From: Lentimicrobium saccharophilum
GTDB taxonomy: Bacteria; Bacteroidota; Bacteroidia; Bacteroidales; Lentimicrobiaceae
Direction of reading: 5' to 3'
Assembly: GCF_001192835.1 (NCBI RefSeq)
Contig: NZ_DF968182.1
Location: forward strand, 2,172,345 to 2,236,344
DNA: 64,000 nucleotides
Part shown: one piece after another, positions 4,585 to 22,950 of the stretch
How the letters are laid out: the number at the start of each line of letters is the position of its first letter
Numbering within the stretch: the stretch's first letter is position 1
Program-made: the position numbers and the translations under genes
Notes under the pieces: model-generated
What the model saw: the letters and a program-made list of their open reading frames with translations, nothing else
What the model was told of the DNA's origin: nothing
The model's database searches: none

Positions 4585-6060
4585 TCAGTAGGCCCGGGCA
4601 AAAACCACCCTGCGGGCCGAAGGATTGCCGGTTAGGATGCACCTGCCTTCTTCAGGTCTGGCATCGAGCGGGATTAATCTGATGGTAGCCTTGGTTTTCT
4701 CCTTGATCTCCTGTTCAGTTTCCGGAGTCCCATCCCAGTGGGCCAGGATAAATCCGCCCTTGTTGTCAAGCAAATCAACGAATTCCTCCCAGGTATCGGC
4801 CTTGGTGGTCATATTCTCCCTGAAATCAACGGCCTTCTGGAACAGGTTATCCTGAATACTCTGCAGCAAATGTTCAATCTTGGTTTCAATATCAGCAATC
4901 TGGAAAGATGATTTCTCAAGAGTATCGCGCCTTGAGACTTCCACGGTGCCGTTTTCAAGATCGCGGGGTCCGATTGCCAGGCGAACGGGTACGCCCTTGA
5001 ACTCATACTCATTGAACTTCCATCCGGGCTTGTAAGTATCACGGTCGTCATATTTTACCGTAATCCCCCTGGCTTTCAGATTCTTAACAATTTCATCGAC
5101 TTTTTCGGTGATTGCGGCCAGTTGCTCATTGGTTTTATAAATCGGGATGATTACCACCTGGGTGGGAGCCAGTTTTGGAGGCAGCACCAGGCCATGGTCG
5201 TCGGAATGCGCCATAATAAGCGCGCCCATCAGGCGGGTCGAAACGCCCCAGGAAGTAGCCCAGACATGTTCAAGTTTATTTTCCTTGCTGAGAAACTGAA
5301 CATCAAACGCTTTGGCAAAATTCTGCCCCAGGAAGTGCGAAGTTCCGGCCTGCAGCGCTTTCCCATCCTGCATAAGCGCTTCGATGCAATAGGTTTCCAC
5401 CGCTCCGGCAAAACGTTCGTTGGGCGATTTCACCCCTTTCAGGACAGGCACAGCCATAAAATTCTCGGCAAAATCCGCGTAAACGTTCAACATCTGTTCG
5501 GTTTCGGCAATCGCCTCTTCGGCAGTAGCATGAGCGGTGTGCCCTTCCTGCCATAAAAATTCGGCAGTGCGGAGAAAAAGGCGGGTACGCATTTCCCATC
5601 TTACCACATTTGCCCACTGATTTATCAGCAGGGGCAGATCGCGGTAGGACTGTATCCAGTTGCGGTAGGTGTCCCAGATGATGGTCTCGGAGGTAGGGCG
5701 GACAATCAGTTCTTCCTCCAGTTTTGCATTCTCATCAACCACAACGCCCTTGCCATCGGGGTCATTCTTCAGACGGTAGTGGGTCACCACGGCACACTCC
5801 TTGGCAAAACCCTCGACATGGCTGGCTTCCTTGCTGAAAAATGATTTGGGAATAAAAATAGGGAAGTAAGCATTTACATGCCCGGTTTCCTTGAACATTT
5901 TGTCCAGGGCTGCCTGCATCTTCTCCCAGATTGCATATCCGTAGGGTTTAATCACCATACAGCCCCTTACAGCTGAATTTTCAGCCATATCGGCCTTAAT
6001 AACCAGGTCGTTGTACCATTGAGCGTAATTTTCAGCCCTTGTAGGAAAATCTTTAGCCAT
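4585..6060 (-). CDS. proS: Prolyl-tRNA synthetase, archaeal/eukaryal-type (ProS type 3)
   Basis: 491 residues from the ATG at 6060 ([17 protein letters not shown]). The frame runs open to 6285, but the extra sequence is unlike the family and would cross the promoter. Class II motifs are visible: motif 1 around GYAIWEKMQ, motif 2 around RPTSETIIW and [24 protein letters not shown], and motif 3 near the end of the catalytic core ([14 protein letters not shown]), then an anticodon-binding domain with the [16 protein letters not shown] segment. It lacks the large editing insertion of the E. coli type, ends in a Tyr (ARAY), and so belongs to the short, archaeal-like class that is normal in Bacteroidota. 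It charges tRNA-Pro in the cytoplasm. It has its own promoter and terminator and reads away from the Tyr-rich lipoprotein gene. Confidence 0.96.
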
Positions 6061-6123
6061 TTCTGATTTTATGGTATAGTATTTGTTAATTTTCAGATGT
6101 GAAACACACCCGCGAAAGCGGCA

Positions 6124-6131: not shown

Positions 6132-6205
6132 ATAAAATTACCGCAGTCCGTACATCAGGACAAAACCAGTACGATGAACACTGCAAACAAAGGGAGGACC
6201 CAAAA

Positions 6206-8014
6206 ATGAGAACTTTAATCACATTGGTTGCTGCAACTGCTTTGCTCCTTACGGGATGCACAACGCAATACCAGGCCCGTGCCACTTACGACGACCTGTA
6301 TTACTCGCCCAAGGATGCAGTGGCCGAAAAAGTCCCTGAAACCACAGCAAAGCCAACTGAATACACTGAGCCTGAACAATATACTCCCAAGGAACAATAT
6401 CAGGAGCAGCAGCAAGCGCAGGCAGAGGAAAACTATGCCTACGACGAAAACTATTACCAGGAGGAAGGTTACGACTATCAGACCAGCGAACAGTATACTG
6501 ACCCTCAAACAGGGAATACATACATTACCAACAACTACTACAACTCCGACGATTATTACGATTACGCCTATGCAGCCAGATTACGCAGGTTCCATTCCGA
6601 TGTTTATTATAACAGCTACTACTCACCATACTATACCAACATGTACTGGTATGACTACAATCCCTGGAGCTGGGGAACCAGCATCTACATGGGTTACAAC
6701 TGGTGGTATCCCAGCTTCTACATGCGTTGGGGCTGGGGGTATCCTTACGGATACGGATATGGAAATTACTGGGGTTATTCATACTGGGATTATCCCTATT
6801 ACGGATGGGGATACCCATATTACGGTTACGGAAGCTACTGGAGCGGATACCGCCACGGTTACTGGGACGGTTTTTATGCCGGTTCAAATTACTATAACAG
6901 CTACGATTACAATTCATACTATTATGGTCCGCGCGGTTCAGGTCTGAGCGGAGGTTCAGGCAGCGGACGTTCAGCCTCATTCGGCGAGCGTTATGAAGCC
7001 GCTGTCAGCAGCGGTCGTCTTGAAGGTCAGCGTACATCACCCATCGGAGTTTCCGGTCCGGGCCGTACAACCGATCCCGGAAGGGCTGGCGGAACGGTCA
7101 CCCCCGGACGTACTGAGGAACCCGGAAGAACTTCAGGCACTGTAACACCAGGCCGCACCGAACAACCCGGAAGAACCAGCGGAACGGTCACCCCCGGACG
7201 TACTGAAGCTCCCGGAAAAACAACGGGAACTGTAACTCCGGGGCGTACTGAGCAGCCGGGAACCGGCACTGTAAATCCGGGAAGAACTGCTCAGCCCGGA
7301 ACCGGCCAGGGTACTGTTACCCCGGGCCGTACTGAGCAACCTGCAGGGGGTGCAGAAACCATCAATCCCGGCAGGGTGATTCAGCCGGTACGTACTGACC
7401 AGATAACTCCTTCAGGGACCGGTACAAGACAAAGCAGCGATCCCTCACGCTATAGCGCACCTTCGGGACAAAATACCAGAACAGCAGCCCCGCAGGGTGA
7501 AGGCCAGGGAAGCGAAAGGCGCTACACTCAGCCGCAGCAGCGGCCTGCATACCAGCGACCTGCCACAAACCAGGAACCCAGGATGCAGGAAAGCAGAACA
7601 CCTCAGTCATACAGTTCACCGGGATACAATAAGCCAAAATCAAGCAACGAATACACCAGCCCAAGGTACCGCAATATCCGCGAAACCGGTGTAACGCCCA
7701 GGTACTCCAGGCCTCAGCAATCAGAACCCCAGCGGCAGCAGGCACCCCGTGAAGTAATCCCACAGCGGCAGTCAAATCCTTCATATACGCCATCCCGTTC
7801 ATACGAAAGCAGAGGAACTTATTCTGCCCCTTCGCGTTCTTCCTCATCCGAAAGGAGCTATTCTTCACCCTCCTCCGGAAGCAGTTATTCAGCACCATCC
7901 CGTTCATCCTCATCCGGATCTTCGGGCGGTAGTTACTCAGCTCCTTCGCGCTCATCATCCTCTTCTTCATCATCGGGAAGCGGCAGATCTTCCTCCGGAA
8001 GCGGACGCAGGTAA
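6206..8014 (+). CDS. Tyr/Trp-rich, repeat-bearing lipoprotein of unknown function
   Basis: 602 residues from the ATG at 6206, which has a strong Shine-Dalgarno (GGGAGG, 6192-6197). The signal peptide ends in lipobox LLTGC (Cys18). Four zones follow: an acidic Gln/Glu/Tyr-rich stretch (about 40-105); a zone of about 140 residues (105-245) made almost wholly of Tyr, Trp, Gly, Asn and Ser, with many YYNSYY, YPYYG and WGWGYPYG runs; seven near-copies of a 15-residue unit [15 protein letters not shown] (about 285-395); and a Ser/Arg/Pro/Gln-rich tail with [12 protein letters not shown] repeats (540-602). There is no catalytic domain. It is probably tethered to the outer membrane and disordered or fibrous. 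The FadL-like gene follows after 41 bases and may be co-transcribed. I do not recognise a function. Confidence 0.85.
7061..7390 (+). repeat. In-frame 45-bp coding repeats
   Basis: About seven imperfect tandem 45-base units encode [15 protein letters not shown]-like peptides inside the Tyr-rich lipoprotein. Differences fall mostly at third positions or between similar residues, and unit lengths stay multiples of three (some are 13 or 15 codons), so the array is kept by selection on protein and can change length by slippage or recombination. Confidence 0.85.
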
Positions 8015-8055
8015 ACTAATGGATTTACTGACTTAATCACAAAAACATTGCTACC

Positions 8056-9495
8056 ATGAAAAAACTCATTGTCCTTGGCATACTGTCCATTTTTACCACT
8101 TACGGACTTAAAGCACAAAATGAGATTGATGCATTGAGATATTCACGGCTGAATTACTCTGGATCAGCCAGATTTGTCGCCATGGGTGGAGCATTCGGTG
8201 CCCTTGGCGCCGATTTCACCAGCCTGAGCCACAATCCGGCCGGTATCGGACTCTACCGAAGTTCCGAGATCAGCATTACCCCTTCCATAAGCATCACAAA
8301 TACCGAAGCTACACTCAACGGGACATTCCGTGATGACTCCCGCTATAATTTCAACCTGGGCAGCGTAGGAATTGTAATGAACAACAACCTTGAATCACGC
8401 AATCCGCAATCTCTCTGGAAAAACATACAGTTTGGCTTCGGGCTGAACCGTATGGCCAATTTCAACAACAGGGTCAGCATTGAATCGGAAAACCTCGTAT
8501 CATCTTACCTGACTTCCTACTGGGAAAACGCGCAGGGAATCCACCCAGATGACCTTGGCACTTTTGACACCCGGCTGGCCTATGATACAGAGTTGCTGTT
8601 TATCACCGACTCGGCAGGCTGGGGATATGGTATCGACAAACCCTATGGCGGTGTGAACCAGCGTAAAAACATCGAAAGCAAGGGCTCCATTAATGAGATG
8701 GTATTTACTTTAGGTGCGAATTACAATAACAGGTTATACCTGGGCGCAACCATTGGCGTACCTTATATCAGGTATTACGAAACCGCAACCTTTACCGAAA
8801 CCGCGCTGGCTGACGATAACACCGTTTTCAACAGCATGTCCCGCACCGACTGGCTTGAAACCACAGGTACGGGGCTGAATTTCAAATTCGGACTTATTTT
8901 CAGGGCTACCGACTGGTTACGTCTGGGCGGCGCCATTCATACACCTACCTTTTATAATTCCATGGCCGACGATTACTCATCAACCATGCGCTCGAAGTTT
9001 GATAATGGTTATTCAGCTACTGCCGATGCCAACGGCTTTTATGAATACGAACTCAATACCCCGATGCGTGCTATCGGAAGTATCGGATTTATTATCGGCA
9101 AAGCCGGTGTAATCAGTGCCGATTACGAATTCGTGGATTACAGTAATGCCAGACTCAGGGCTCCGGATTACGACTTTTACGATGAGAACAATGCCATCCG
9201 TTCCATTTATCAGAAAGCCAATAATCTGCGTTTCGGAACTGAGTGGCGTTACGGTGCGCTGAATTTCAGAGGAGGCTACGGGATCTCGGCAAATCCTTAC
9301 GTCTATGGAACCAATTCGGCACTCTCTTCTTACTCGCTCGGAATCGGCATCCGTGAAAGGTCATTCTACTTTGATATGGCATGGGTTTATTCGAGCTATG
9401 ATGATGAATATTACCTCTATAACGGGAATGTAAATGCAGCCAATACCACTACCATGAACAACACTTTTATGGTAACGCTGGGAATAAAATACTAA
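8056..9495 (+). CDS. Outer-membrane protein, OMPP1/FadL-like family
   Basis: 479 residues with a Sec signal peptide ending at LKAQ (21) and a C-terminal beta strand (NNTFMVTLGIKY) that ends in an aromatic residue, as outer-membrane barrels do. The N-terminus shows the hatch-like motif GSARFVAMGGAFGALG, then FTSLSHNPAGIGLY, the signature of the FadL/TodX group often labelled hemin receptor in this phylum. FadL proteins pass hydrophobic molecules through the outer membrane; the Bacteroidota members' substrates are mostly unknown. It lies 41 bases after the Tyr-rich lipoprotein gene and ends at a strong terminator, which suggests a two-gene unit. Confidence 0.85.
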   Translation: MKKLIVLGILSIFTTYGLKAQNEIDALRYSRLNYSGSARFVAMGGAFGALGADFTSLSHNPAGIGLYRSSEISITPSISITNTEATLNGTFRDDSRYNFNLGSVGIVMNNNLESRNPQSLWKNIQFGFGLNRMANFNNRVSIESENLVSSYLTSYWENAQGIHPDDLGTFDTRLAYDTELLFITDSAGWGYGIDKPYGGVNQRKNIESKGSINEMVFTLGANYNNRLYLGATIGVPYIRYYETATFTETALADDNTVFNSMSRTDWLETTGTGLNFKFGLIFRATDWLRLGGAIHTPTFYNSMADDYSSTMRSKFDNGYSATADANGFYEYELNTPMRAIGSIGFIIGKAGVISADYEFVDYSNARLRAPDYDFYDENNAIRSIYQKANNLRFGTEWRYGALNFRGGYGISANPYVYGTNSALSSYSLGIGIRERSFYFDMAWVYSSYDDEYYLYNGNVNAANTTTMNNTFMVTLGIKY

Positions 9496-9535
9496 CACTT
9501 CTCAACCCTACTTATTACATCTCTATATACTCCCT

Positions 9536-9569
9536 GAAGCGGCTTTTGAAAAGCCGCTTCATTTTTTTT
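9536..9569 (+). terminator. Strong Rho-independent terminator
   Basis: A perfect 12-base-pair stem (GAAGCGGCTTTT / AAAAGCCGCTTC, 9536-9560) is followed by ATTTTTTTT. It ends the lipoprotein/FadL-like unit. Its downstream arm covers the stop codon of the convergent TPR gene (9559-9561). Confidence 0.9.
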
Positions 9570-18388: not shown

Positions 18389-19564
18389 ATGATCATTTTT
18401 GAAGAAGCGCTCTCGATTATCAACAATACAAGGGTTTCATGCACAACCGAACACGTCAGTCTTGAAATATCCGCCGGAAGGATATTGGCGGAGGACGTTT
18501 ACTCGGATGTTGAAATGCCTCCTTTCGACAAGGCCGCTGTCGACGGTTTCGCCTGTCGCCGGGCCGACCTGCACGGACTTCTCGAGGTGATAGAGGTTAT
18601 CCCTGCAGGTAAACAGCCCGAAAAAGCGGTAACTGCCGGGAAATGCTCCAGAATCATGACAGGGGCCATGGTGCCGGAAGGCGCTGACACCGTAATTATG
18701 GTGGAGCATACTGAGGAAACAGAAGATGGAAGCGTACGCTTCCTGAAAGAAAAGACTTCTGCCAACATAGCTTACAGGGCGGAAGATGTAAAACAGGGAC
18801 AGCAGGTGCTGAACAAGGGCACCCTCTTGAAGCCGCAACACATTGCCATACTTGCAGCCGTCGGCATTCCGGAGCCGCTTGTTTTCCGGCAGCCGGTCAT
18901 CGGGATCATTTCAACCGGAGATGAACTGACGGAACCAGACAATAAACCCGGCACCGGCCAGATCAGAAACAGCAATGCCTGGCAATTGATGGCACAGGCA
19001 AACCAGTTGGGGCTTAAAACGGTGTATACCGGCATTGCTGCTGATACCCCTGAAAGCGTGAAAAAACATATCAGCGAGGCATTTGACAAGAGTGATATCG
19101 TGCTGTTAACAGGTGGCGTGTCCATGGGAGATTTCGACCATGTGCCGGAAGTAATGCAGAAACTCGGAGTGGAAATCCAATTTAAAAGCATCGCTGTGCA
19201 ACCGGGAAGGCCAACCGTTTTTGGCATCAGGGATGAAAAATTCATTTTCGGGCTCCCGGGCAATCCGGTTTCTTCATTTGTCCAGTTTGAACTCCTTGTC
19301 AAACAACTGGTTTACCGCATTATGGGTCATCATTTCAGACCTGCCGTGCTCAGGCTGCCAATGGCCGCTGAATATTCCCGGAAAAAAGCGGAACGCAAAT
19401 CATTCATACCTGTAAGGATCAATGCTGAGGGGCTGATTGAACCACTCGAATATCACGGATCGGCGCATATTCATGCTTATGAGGAGGCCAATGGCCTGAT
19501 GGCTGTTGAAATAGGGGAAGCACAAATTGCAAAAGGAGAAATGAGGAATGTTCGACAACTATAA
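18389..19564 (+). CDS. moeA: Molybdopterin molybdenumtransferase MoeA
   Basis: 391 residues from the ATG at 18389 (MIIFEEALSIINN); the frame is open from 18320, but a promoter box at 18358 falls inside that extension. Typical MoeA motifs: PPFDKAAVDGFA, GKCSRIMTGAMVPEGAD, EHTE, GDELTEP, GQIRNSNAWQL, LLTGGVSMGDFD and FGLPGNPVSSF. MoeA inserts molybdate (or tungstate) into adenylylated molybdopterin, releasing AMP, in the cytosol. Its last 17 bases overlap moaA, so the two are translationally coupled. First gene of the six-gene cofactor cluster. Confidence 0.96.
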   Translation: MIIFEEALSIINNTRVSCTTEHVSLEISAGRILAEDVYSDVEMPPFDKAAVDGFACRRADLHGLLEVIEVIPAGKQPEKAVTAGKCSRIMTGAMVPEGADTVIMVEHTEETEDGSVRFLKEKTSANIAYRAEDVKQGQQVLNKGTLLKPQHIAILAAVGIPEPLVFRQPVIGIISTGDELTEPDNKPGTGQIRNSNAWQLMAQANQLGLKTVYTGIAADTPESVKKHISEAFDKSDIVLLTGGVSMGDFDHVPEVMQKLGVEIQFKSIAVQPGRPTVFGIRDEKFIFGLPGNPVSSFVQFELLVKQLVYRIMGHHFRPAVLRLPMAAEYSRKKAERKSFIPVRINAEGLIEPLEYHGSAHIHAYEEANGLMAVEIGEAQIAKGEMRNVRQL

Positions 19565-20348
19565 CAGACAGATCAATTATCTGCGCATATCAGTTACCGA
19601 CCGCTGTAACCTCCGCTGTGTTTACTGTATGCCCGAAGAGGGTGTGAAACTGCTGCAGCACAATGAGATAGTAACTTTTGAAGAAATTACCAATGTTGCC
19701 TTCACAGCTGTCAGGCTGGGCATTGACAAAATCAGGATTACCGGCGGGGAGCCTTTGGTACGAAAAGGAATCGTGTCGCTCGTGGAAATGCTGGCCGATA
19801 TTCCCGGCATCAGGGATTTGTCGATGACCACCAACGGTGCCTTGCTGAAACAATTTGCCCAACCACTGAAGAGTGCCGGGCTGATGCGCGTGAATGTCAG
19901 CCTCGATACCCTTGACCCTGCCAGGTACCGCAGTTTAACCCGTGGCGGGGACCTGCACCAGGTACTGGAGGGCATAAGGGCTGCCCAGAGGGTCGGGCTT
20001 ACTCCGGTCAAAATCAATTGCGTGGTCAAAAATTCATCAACTGAAAAAGACGCGCAGATGGTTGAAGAATTTGGCAAACTGAACGGACTTGAAACCAGGT
20101 TTATTCATCAGATGAACCTTTCGGACGGGCATTTTTCGATTGTTGAAGGAGGTACGGGAGGAGATTGCAGCCATTGTAACCGTATCCGCCTTACAGCCAG
20201 CGGCAAACTGCTCCCCTGTTTGTTCAGCGGAATTGAATATGACATCAGAAAAATGGGCGCTGAACAAGCCATTCGTGCCGCCATTGCAAATAAACCGGCC
20301 TGCGGCAGCATAAACCTGAAAGGGGAGTTTTATAATATCGGCGGCTAA
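19548..20348 (+). CDS. moaA: Compact GTP 3',8-cyclase MoaA (radical SAM)
   Basis: 266 residues against about 330 in E. coli. The N-terminal radical-SAM cluster motif CNLRCVYC (Cys20, 24, 27), ITGGEP (SAM-binding), the TNG, NVSLDTLDP and TRFI segments are all present. The second iron-sulfur motif C-x2-C-x13-C (Cys207, 210, 224; CSHCNRIRLTASGKLLPCLF) and the C-terminal Gly-Gly are intact. What is missing is the stretch of about 55-60 residues that normally lies between the RFIE-like motif and the second cluster; here 18-20 residues bridge them. Both ends and the frame are sound, so this is a natural short form rather than a broken gene. It makes 3',8-cyclo-GTP, the first step to molybdopterin. 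Confidence 0.9.
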   Translation: MFDNYNRQINYLRISVTDRCNLRCVYCMPEEGVKLLQHNEIVTFEEITNVAFTAVRLGIDKIRITGGEPLVRKGIVSLVEMLADIPGIRDLSMTTNGALLKQFAQPLKSAGLMRVNVSLDTLDPARYRSLTRGGDLHQVLEGIRAAQRVGLTPVKINCVVKNSSTEKDAQMVEEFGKLNGLETRFIHQMNLSDGHFSIVEGGTGGDCSHCNRIRLTASGKLLPCLFSGIEYDIRKMGAEQAIRAAIANKPACGSINLKGEFYNIGG

Positions 20349-21393: not shown

Positions 21394-22317
21394 ATGAAAA
21401 TAGATATAAAATCCGTCAACATCTCTGAGAAAAAAGGAACCATTAAGGTGCCTGTGAAGCACATCGCGCTTACCCTTAACGGTGTTGATGGAGATGCCCA
21501 TGCCGGGAAATGGCACCGTCAGGTAAGCCTGTTGGGAACAGAAAGTTTCAGAAAATTCGAGAAAGTCGCCGGCAGGCCGCTGAAATATGGTGAGTTTGCC
21601 GAAAACATCACCACCGAAGGTATTATTCTTTACGAAACCCATCCACTCGACCGGTTTACGATCGGCGATGCCGTGCTCGAAGTAACCCAGATAGGAAAAA
21701 AATGCCACGGCGACAGCTGCGCAATATACCGGGAGGTTGGCAATTGTGTGATGCCTAAAGAGGGAATATTCTGCAGGGTATTGAAACCGGGCATAGTAAA
21801 AGCCGGAGATGTAATGACCTATCATCCGAAGGTATTCGGGGTAAAAGTCATCACGCTGAGCGACCGGGCAGCTTCCGGCGAATATGAAGACCGCAGCGGG
21901 CCCCGTGCCGTTCAGATACTTGAAGAATACTTTGCCGGTCTGGGATGGAAAGCTGAGATCGTGAGGAGTGTGATTCCCGATGAAGCAGAACTGCTCAGGC
22001 AGGAAATCAGCGGGGCGGCCGGTGCAGATATAATTTTTACTACAGGCGGGACAGGCATCGGGCCACGCGATATTACCGTGGATGTTGTAAAACCGATGCT
22101 TGACAAGGAAATCCCCGGAATTATGGAAATGATCCGGCTGAAATACGGTTCCGAAAAACCCAATGCCTTGCTTAGCCGGGGTGTTGCCGGGGTAAAAGGA
22201 ATGTCGCTTATATATACCCTTCCGGGGAGCGTGAAGGCGGTTGAGGAATACCTGTCTGTTATTACTTCAACGGTCAGGCATTCCGTTTATATGCTGAATG
22301 GACTGGATCTGCATTAA
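21394..22317 (+). CDS. MOSC domain fused to MogA/MoaB-type molybdopterin adenylyltransferase
   Basis: 307 residues in two parts. Residues 1-145 form a MOSC domain (KHIALTLNGVDGDAHAG, GEFAENITTEGI, and GKKCHGDSCAIY with Cys104 at the conserved cysteine site). Residues 147-307 form a MogA/MoaB domain (KVITLSDRAASGEYEDRSGP, FTTGGTGIGPRDIT at 215-228, then LPGSVKAVEE). MOSC proteins carry or handle Moco sulfur, often as stand-alone YiiM-like proteins; MogA adenylylates molybdopterin ahead of MoeA. The fusion joins the late cofactor step with a possible sulfur-carrier step. It sits in the same operon as moeA, moaA and moaC. Confidence 0.9.
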   Translation: MKIDIKSVNISEKKGTIKVPVKHIALTLNGVDGDAHAGKWHRQVSLLGTESFRKFEKVAGRPLKYGEFAENITTEGIILYETHPLDRFTIGDAVLEVTQIGKKCHGDSCAIYREVGNCVMPKEGIFCRVLKPGIVKAGDVMTYHPKVFGVKVITLSDRAASGEYEDRSGPRAVQILEEYFAGLGWKAEIVRSVIPDEAELLRQEISGAAGADIIFTTGGTGIGPRDITVDVVKPMLDKEIPGIMEMIRLKYGSEKPNALLSRGVAGVKGMSLIYTLPGSVKAVEEYLSVITSTVRHSVYMLNGLDLH

Positions 22318-22389
22318 GTAAATGATTATTTCCCGGTAAACCGGGCAGTAAATATAAAAGAAAGTACTAAAATCCGGGAGGAAGAAGCC

Positions 22390-22950
22390 ATGTTGTTATC
22401 ACGCAATGAAGCACTTGATTTGCTGAGGAGATATATAAAGAATGAACGCATGATCGCCCATTCGCTGGCGTCGGAAGCCGTGATGCGGGCACTCGCCCTT
22501 CGTTTGGGCCGCGATCCGGAAAAATGGGCACAGGCAGGACTGCTTCATGATCTTGATGTGGAAATCACAAATGCGGACCCAGCCATCCATGCCCTGGAAA
22601 CTGCACGTATCCTCACCGGACTCGGGATAGATGGAGATGTGGTTGATGCCATCCGTATGCACAACGAGATGGCTACCGGTCTGGAACGGGAGACTGAATT
22701 CCAGCACGCCCTTGCCGCCGGAGAAACCATTACCGGGCTCATCACCGCGACAGCCATGGTTTACCCCGATAAAAAGGTAGCATCCGTAAAACCTAAATCG
22801 GTTGTGAAGCGGATGAAAGAAAAAGCATTTGCAGCTTCAGTAAGACGGGAAGCTATTCTGGAATGTGAGAAAATAGGGCTGACGCTTGATGAATTCGCCG
22901 CCCTGAGCATAAATGCAATGGCAGAAATAGCCGATGAAATCGGTTTGTGA
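22390..22950 (+). CDS. HD-domain hydrolase
   Basis: 186 residues with HD-family ligands: His24, His53-Asp54 (LLHDLD) and His67 or His91, the set that holds one or two divalent metals. It is of the HDIG group of small phosphohydrolases. The ATG at 22390 has a good Shine-Dalgarno (GGGAGG). Substrate unknown. It follows the MOSC-MogA gene by 72 bases and may belong to the operon. Its stop lies 10 bases from the convergent alkB gene. Confidence 0.85.
   Translation: MLLSRNEALDLLRRYIKNERMIAHSLASEAVMRALALRLGRDPEKWAQAGLLHDLDVEITNADPAIHALETARILTGLGIDGDVVDAIRMHNEMATGLERETEFQHALAAGETITGLITATAMVYPDKKVASVKPKSVVKRMKEKAFAASVRREAILECEKIGLTLDEFAALSINAMAEIADEIGL

Follow-up and report, generated by a model that had tools for sequence, protein, structure and literature searches.

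Why should a lipoprotein rich in tyrosine, serine and arginine be encoded next to a FadL-like outer-membrane barrel? The question is raised by a 64,000-nucleotide stretch of the Lentimicrobium saccharophilum genome, hereafter the window, in which the lipoprotein gene stands between proS and the gene for the barrel. A preliminary description of this DNA had suggested a joint job for the two products at the outer membrane, and had likened the lipoprotein to adhesive or cross-linking surface proteins. The first suggestion survived the comparisons reported below, as both the synteny and the Tyr-rich zone proved to be conserved; the second did not find support. We lean, with modest confidence, towards regarding the two genes as an outer-membrane module of two dedicated parts, old in Bacteroidota and composed of a FadL-type barrel and a probably disordered, usually lipid-anchored partner facing the periplasm.

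Architecture and constraint of the tyrosine-rich gene

The lipoprotein gene occupies positions 6206-8014 of the forward strand, on which all features described here lie unless stated otherwise, and encodes 602 amino acid residues between the ATG at 6206 and the stop codon ending at 8014. Its product begins with a signal peptide and a lipobox, LLTG-C (6206-6259), with Cys18 as the putative lipidated residue. The signal is followed by a DDLYY head motif at residues 29-33 (6290-6304), in which D29, D30 and Y32 are invariant in both an 18-sequence and a 17-sequence set. A Tyr/Trp/Gly core, delimited by composition, dN/dS and conservation, spans residues 99-245 (6500-6940, 147 residues) and encloses a conserved stretch of 28 residues (6512-6595). 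Tyr (31%), Gly (13%), Ser (10%), Asn (8%) and Trp (8%) together account for ~69% of the core; thus, the zone of about 140 residues noticed in the preliminary description is real, albeit 'almost only' these five amino acids was a slight overstatement. Downstream, a repeat scan detected six to seven units of 13-15 residues at 7076-7306, close to the seven or so 15-residue units reported earlier. At the DNA level, the repeats comprise 3.9 copies of 45 bp (7076-7251) and 2.2 copies of 39 bp (7222-7306), and the repeat unit varies between relatives. The protein closes with a basic Ser/Arg-rich tail (7406-8011) ending in Arg-Arg (GSGRR). Only 41 bp (8015-8055) separate the gene from that of the barrel. 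A hairpin scan of the forward strand found no terminator-like hairpin between the two genes, and one of 12 bp followed by eight T at 9535-9561, 3' of the barrel gene. The lipobox, the Ser/Arg tail, the 41-base gap and, as a terminator-like hairpin, the shared terminator of the preliminary description are thereby all borne out.

No family in Pfam or NCBIfam was matched over cut-off by the window protein, in agreement with the earlier failure to recognise any. Ten relatives likewise gave nothing over cut-off, with one sub-threshold match in Pfam and sub-threshold matches only in NCBIfam, and a sequence search of the PDB with the Tyr-rich protein found no known domain. Within its own genome, the single match to the protein is the protein itself. 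The AlphaFold2 (AF2) model of residues 1-272 reached a pLDDT of 35 with no confident fold, a low score that could be caused by disorder and/or by a shallow alignment. A literature search covering titles and the beginnings of abstracts, with preprints and most subscription journals outside its reach, found no description of the gene. 'Vitellogenin II', which we take to be an annotation given to such Tyr-rich genes, gave nothing as a lead in a literature lookup.

A protein of such composition might be the product of low-complexity drift beside a housekeeping gene, and some parts of it do evolve loosely. Against locus L023, the dN/dS values of residues 1-98, core, repeats and tail were 0.222, 0.039, 0.213 and 0.068, respectively; against L024, those of residues 1-98, repeats and tail were 0.267, 0.201 and 0.152, the core being not estimable. 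Repeats and N-terminal spacer, and in one of the comparisons also the tail, evolve faster than the core, as drift would have it. The core, in contrast, had the lowest value of the four segments wherever it could be estimated. Against two close relatives, its dN/dS values were 0.016 and 0.025, compared with 0.057 and 0.080 over its full gene and 0.053 and 0.043 for the barrel gene. The gene was found in 17 of 19 genomes of the same genus, including its own (13/13 of the good ones). Moreover, a profile built from the first 272 residues (A3) matched, at E<1e-3, 27/40 distant members of Bacteroidales versus 2/400 copies shuffled in 20-residue windows, and 37/39 members from other Bacteroidia versus 5/390 such copies. 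Among 400 other ORFs it matched one, which is another piece of a split partner gene in L140. To judge from these sequence comparisons, the homology of the Tyr-rich proteins goes beyond shared composition. The preliminary description had been ready to accept drift if relatives showed neither the synteny nor a conserved Tyr-rich zone. As the core is so constrained, the shuffled controls match far less, and the synteny of lipoprotein and barrel is deep (see below), we consider drift very improbable.

The barrel and the extent of the pair

The gene downstream (8056-9495) encodes a protein of 479 residues, for which the AF2 model (pLDDT 78.8, pTM 0.77), Foldseek and VIA matches predict a FadL-fold outer-membrane barrel. 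In Foldseek, BamG of Bacteroides thetaiotaomicron, Porphyromonas gingivalis and Flavobacterium johnsoniae ranked first and FadL next, whereas in VIA-align BamG (Z 30.1-30.8) came some two units below CymD (Z 32.8, rmsd 3.3 over 329 residues) and FadL (Z 32.6, rmsd 3.9 over 355 residues); TodX was also among the structural matches. The NPA motif of the N-terminal hatch (N60-P61-A62) is invariant in sets of 15 and of 37 barrel sequences, and Q21 and D25, ahead of the hatch, are conserved. The window barrel had no hit in Pfam and reached no curated family cut-off. Among seven orthologues compared with Toluene_X (PF03349, cut-off 29.7), those in L101 (33.8) and L109 (47.9) scored over the cut-off, that in L115 (23.5) fell under it, and four had no hit. 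As part of the module reading, we propose from the model and these matches that the barrel is a FadL-fold protein of a subfamily of its own. In its own genome, the barrel profile A1 gave one match and the broader profile A4 two.

The Foldseek ranking suggested that the barrel is BamG itself. We rejected this identity, as, at E values up to 1, the barrel did not hit NF053685 and profile A1 retrieved none of the BamG structures from the PDB. The true BamG of this genome is encoded at L073 (427 residues, near 87 kb of contig C1), which scored 389.7 bits against NF053685 (cut-off 250) and matched three BamG structures in the PDB with E values of 5e-57 to 3e-46. It is flanked by genes that we take to encode a type III pantothenate kinase and a TPR protein. 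Another FadL homologue of the genome, L071, was also rejected as BamG. An assignment of the window barrel to PorV/PorQ was rejected as well, with 27.6 bits against NF033709 (cut-off 90).

Even so, the barrel might be a second, BamG-like accessory factor of outer-membrane assembly, of which the disordered partner would act on the BAM complex or its clients in the manner of the Flavobacterium BamP linker. The top Foldseek ranks of BamG from three species and the conserved Q21 and D25 point in this direction. So do the statements that other Bacteroidota may hold unrecognised BamP-like proteins (PMC12611786, on F. johnsoniae) and that BamA itself carries a disordered Tyr-rich loop (PMC12578637). 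On the other side, VIA-align prefers FadL and CymD, the sequence profile of the barrel does not retrieve BamG from the PDB, and the passages considered of PMC12611786 and PMC12578637 name no Tyr-rich lipoprotein among the proteins co-purified with BAM. One of these two BAM papers counts four FadL paralogues in B. thetaiotaomicron, not all of which are named in the passages considered. On balance, we regard a role in assembly as unlikely.

The module reading depends on whether barrel and lipoprotein stay together. The barrel profile matched 286/295 Bacteroidales genomes (241/244 good ones), four of the hits being weaker than 1e-20, and 285/295 Bacteroidia genomes (246/253 good ones), with 26 such hits; in both surveys, five candidates were scored per genome and weak hits were counted by eye. 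In a sample of the phylum, 170 of 198 genomes were matched, and genomes outside the class often gave several matches each. When residues 1-250 of the lipoprotein served as the query, 149/295 Bacteroidales genomes were matched. From genomes with no (37) or a marginal (3) match in that search, we sampled 40 Bacteroidales loci, and all 40 carry a secreted ORF rich in Ser, Tyr, Gly, Asn and Arg directly upstream of the barrel, three of these being N-terminally cut. A Tyr/Ser/Arg-rich secreted protein also lies directly upstream of the barrel in 39 of 40 Bacteroidia families, represented by one locus each taken from the better barrel matches, a choice that favours clear barrels; in L140 it is split in two frames, and the one family without a partner upstream of its barrel is represented by L142. 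Outside the class, a comparable lipoprotein was seen near the barrel in eight of nine loci (L183-L191), directly upstream in six and with one gene between in L183 and L184; none was seen near the barrel in L186. The lipoboxes of these eight lipoproteins read GCYTQ in seven cases and GCYTK in L185. That the pair is old in Bacteroidota is proposed here as part of the module reading.

The third gene of the preliminary synteny, proS (read from its ORF as prolyl-tRNA synthetase; 4585-6060, reverse strand), behaves differently. It is the divergent neighbour in 37/40 loci of the Bacteroidia families, and in L187 outside the class, but in only 17/40 of the sampled Bacteroidales loci, four of which have at most 2.1 kb of upstream DNA, too little to judge. 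Because the lipoprotein-barrel pair persists without it, proS looks like a landmark and is probably not a functional part. Thus, the order of proS, Tyr-rich gene and FadL-like gene proposed earlier holds in almost all sampled loci of the class for the latter two and varies for the first, and the link to the FadL-like gene stands even where proS is not the neighbour.

The two genes also appear to be absent together. Full rescoring of 16 genomes gave no barrel match in six and weak partial ones only in ten. Profile A3 found the partner in 0/16 of these, which are not independent (four belong to one genus and four to another family), versus 15/16 known-positive genomes (Fisher 5.7e-8); as the positives were picked knowing that the partner is present, the comparison is a sensitivity check rather than an independent test. 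The neighbourhood of proS could be read in 11 of the 16, and the pair is missing in all of them, L181 among them keeping a Ser/Pro/Thr/Tyr lipoprotein of 272 residues near proS. In four genomes of one genus without barrel and partner (L172-L175), an ORF of 493-597 residues adjoins proS, and we read it as a membrane protein.

Shared features of the partners and the proposed module

The partner proteins of the different lineages have several features in common. Leaving aside four cut or split members (L077, L081, L082 and L140), a lipobox Cys was found in 106/130 and a signal peptide without lipobox in 24/130; among members that came from sequence searches, 55/55 have the lipobox. A loose pattern places the DD-x-Y head close behind the signal in all 130, and 121 of 131 (three cut at the end, L008, L010 and L058, being left out) finish with a basic residue (R, K or H), 91 of them with two, the ten others being misses; both patterns were defined post hoc, after inspection of the sequences. 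A strict motif, R[IL][RK][RKN][FY], occurs in 27/79 distant members, with a mean of 0.0 in ten rounds of shuffling, and a looser RIRRF-type motif in 41/79 versus 1.2 in shuffles; the RIRRF-type motif is therefore not universal among distant members. In 124 members, the length ranges from 337 to 666 residues, the last 60 residues contain a median of 13% Arg/Lys and 0% acidic residues, and the best 100-residue window consists of Tyr, Trp, Phe and His to 25-61% (median 44%).

The same features bear on where the protein resides. Surface lipoproteins of Bacteroidota are reported to be marked by at least two acidic residues within the six that follow the lipidated Cys (PMC12578637). By this measure (positions +2 to +7), 0/106 lipobox members have the export signal, 100 having no acidic residue there and six having one, although the measure is a rule of thumb and the absence of the signal is not proof of topology. 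The count weighs against a surface adhesive or an oxidatively cross-linked structural protein, in which an exposed Tyr-rich chain would form a coat, sticky or linked through dityrosine, with the barrel holding it in place. The composition, with its median of 44% Tyr/Trp/Phe/His, suits such a coat, and a FadL-like barrel, BamG, does hold the surface lipoprotein BamH (PMC12578637). On the other hand, besides the missing export signal, 24/130 members have no lipid anchor, and the spread across the class seems to fit a core function better than a niche coat. The adhesive idea of the preliminary description thus appears, from the sequences, to lose its main support, and we rate it as improbable.

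An equally improbable explanation, in our estimate, is that the partner is a structural tether, with a lipid anchor in the outer membrane, a long disordered chain across the periplasm, a basic tail on peptidoglycan and the barrel as its foot in the membrane. The length of the partner, the prevalence of a basic C-terminus, the basic last 60 residues, with a median of no acidic ones, and an AF2 model without a confident fold would all be expected of a tether. An anchor absent from 24/130 members would not, and neither in the window protein nor in the ten relatives was a family, peptidoglycan-binding or other, found over cut-off in Pfam or NCBIfam.

We return to the reading as a two-part module. 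The results behind it are that the two genes stay together, that their sequences are under constraint, that a FadL fold is predicted for the barrel, and that the partner shows neither an export signal nor a confident fold. From these we infer a physical contact, a topology, roles for the segments and a cargo. A lipid anchor in the inner leaflet of the outer membrane would usually hold the partner chain, which would face the periplasm. Its conserved DD-x-Y head, together with the RIRRF-type motif, might dock on the barrel, the aromatic core could make multivalent contacts, and the basic tail with its C-terminal Arg-Arg may touch an anionic partner (LPS, phospholipid or peptidoglycan). As the pair is so widespread and constrained, we would place it with the housekeeping of the envelope rather than with specialised adhesives, and the likeliest job of the module would be the handling or organising of hydrophobic molecules at the outer membrane.

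Translation signal and relation to known systems

A strong Shine-Dalgarno (SD) sequence, AAAGGGAGGACC, lies at 6192-6197, 8 nt before the ATG of the lipoprotein gene. Its duplex energy, -11.5 kcal/mol, is the strongest among the 42 ATG-bearing ORFs of the window. Two further ORFs of the window have strong SD-like leaders, 22317-22947 (-10.3 kcal/mol) and 19544-20345 (-8.9). Between proS and the Tyr-rich gene, the leader also contains a perfect hairpin, CCGC-GAAA-GCGG, at 6110-6121. It is kept in L021, L022, L030, L035 and L004, and has an ATAA loop in L003/L026; the same scan did not find it in L005, L007, L009, L011, L015, L017, L031 and L033.

With start codons guessed from the signal peptide, an SD of -8 kcal/mol or stronger precedes the partner gene in 38/54 distinct loci from sequence searches versus 0/54 mock windows, and in 22/37 other Bacteroidales loci versus 0/37. 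In other Bacteroidia, the counts were 7/39 versus 2/39 (P = 0.15, not significant). In these three sets, without deduplication, the barrel gene reached this energy in 0/48, 1/40 and 2/40 cases and proS in 0/67, 0/17 and 1/37. When genes were instead sorted by composition, those classed as Tyr-rich, a class that also took in some barrels, reached -8 in 1/2 (window), 7/18 (L002-L020), 21/41 (order) and 10/34 (class) cases. For other genes, with a generous choice of start, the counts were 2/40, 2/127, 11/133 (including at least two partner genes misfiled by composition) and 9/120. As the composition-based comparison in the class loci (P = 0.0017) and the mock windows (P = 0.15) disagree, we claim the strong SD for Bacteroidales only. 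There, the Tyr-rich gene has a conserved strong SD, which is often kept and is nearly absent from the barrel gene and proS. Since the strong SD stands on the partner alone, it is not simply a matter of producing partner and barrel in constant proportion, a point that counts against the module reading.

According to PMC9976891, Bacteroidia ribosomes keep the anti-SD hidden by means of bS21, bS18 and bS6, and several ribosomal genes, rpsU and rpsR among them, carry strong SDs. The SD energy of the window gene lies inside the interval of -7 to -14 that the same paper gives for rpsR; as our energies were computed by a different program and with a shorter anti-SD, the two scales are only roughly comparable. 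In contrast to rpsU and rpsR, which are ribosomal genes, the window gene is an envelope gene, and its SD is weaker than that of rpsU. By analogy, the Tyr-rich gene of Bacteroidales may be under an SD control like that of rpsU and rpsR. It is attractive, if quite tentative, to speculate that ribosomes lacking bS21 (or bS18), of which the anti-SD is free, would preferentially translate the Tyr-rich gene in Bacteroidales, and that the state of the ribosomes would thereby determine how much is made of a disordered, sticky partner, which would gate or cluster the FadL-type barrel under the outer membrane. The strong SD makes a broader question testable, namely whether control by specialised ribosomes extends beyond ribosomal genes.

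What may be new here is the pairing of the barrel with a conserved low-complexity partner, which we did not meet in the literature search; the fold of the barrel itself is known. Since the pair is conserved across a class to which major gut and environmental bacteria belong, and no curated family covers its lipoprotein, we see in it a strong candidate for a core function still missing from the picture of the envelope. It would also add a variant with a disordered partner to the recent theme of FadL-fold barrels as platforms in Bacteroidota, of which BamG and PorV are examples. A further candidate pair may be Fjoh_4940 and Fjoh_4941 of F. johnsoniae, a lipoprotein beside a FadL homologue, both of which rise on depletion of TamL (PMC12045153); they may or may not be the counterpart of the Tyr-rich gene and its barrel.

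Among known systems, PorV/PorQ of the type IX secretion system (T9SS) share with the barrel a weak profile match, and two chains of the T9SS translocon, presumably PorV, match it at Z 25; the genome nevertheless encodes what we read as a PorV-like protein (L075) elsewhere, apart from the window barrel. The BamG-BamH complex (9hiv, 9hjm and 9n2d) likewise combines a FadL-fold barrel, with conserved residues ahead of the hatch, and a lipoprotein. BamH, however, is described as folded and surface-exposed (PMC12578637), whereas the partner in the window has neither a confident fold nor an export signal. FadL, TodX, CymD and TbuX (Toluene_X) are alike in predicted fold and in the NPA motif, with VIA Z values of 30-33 over 320-364 residues. 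From these proteins the window barrel differs in an identity of 12-16%, in having no Pfam hit, and in its constant low-complexity neighbour.
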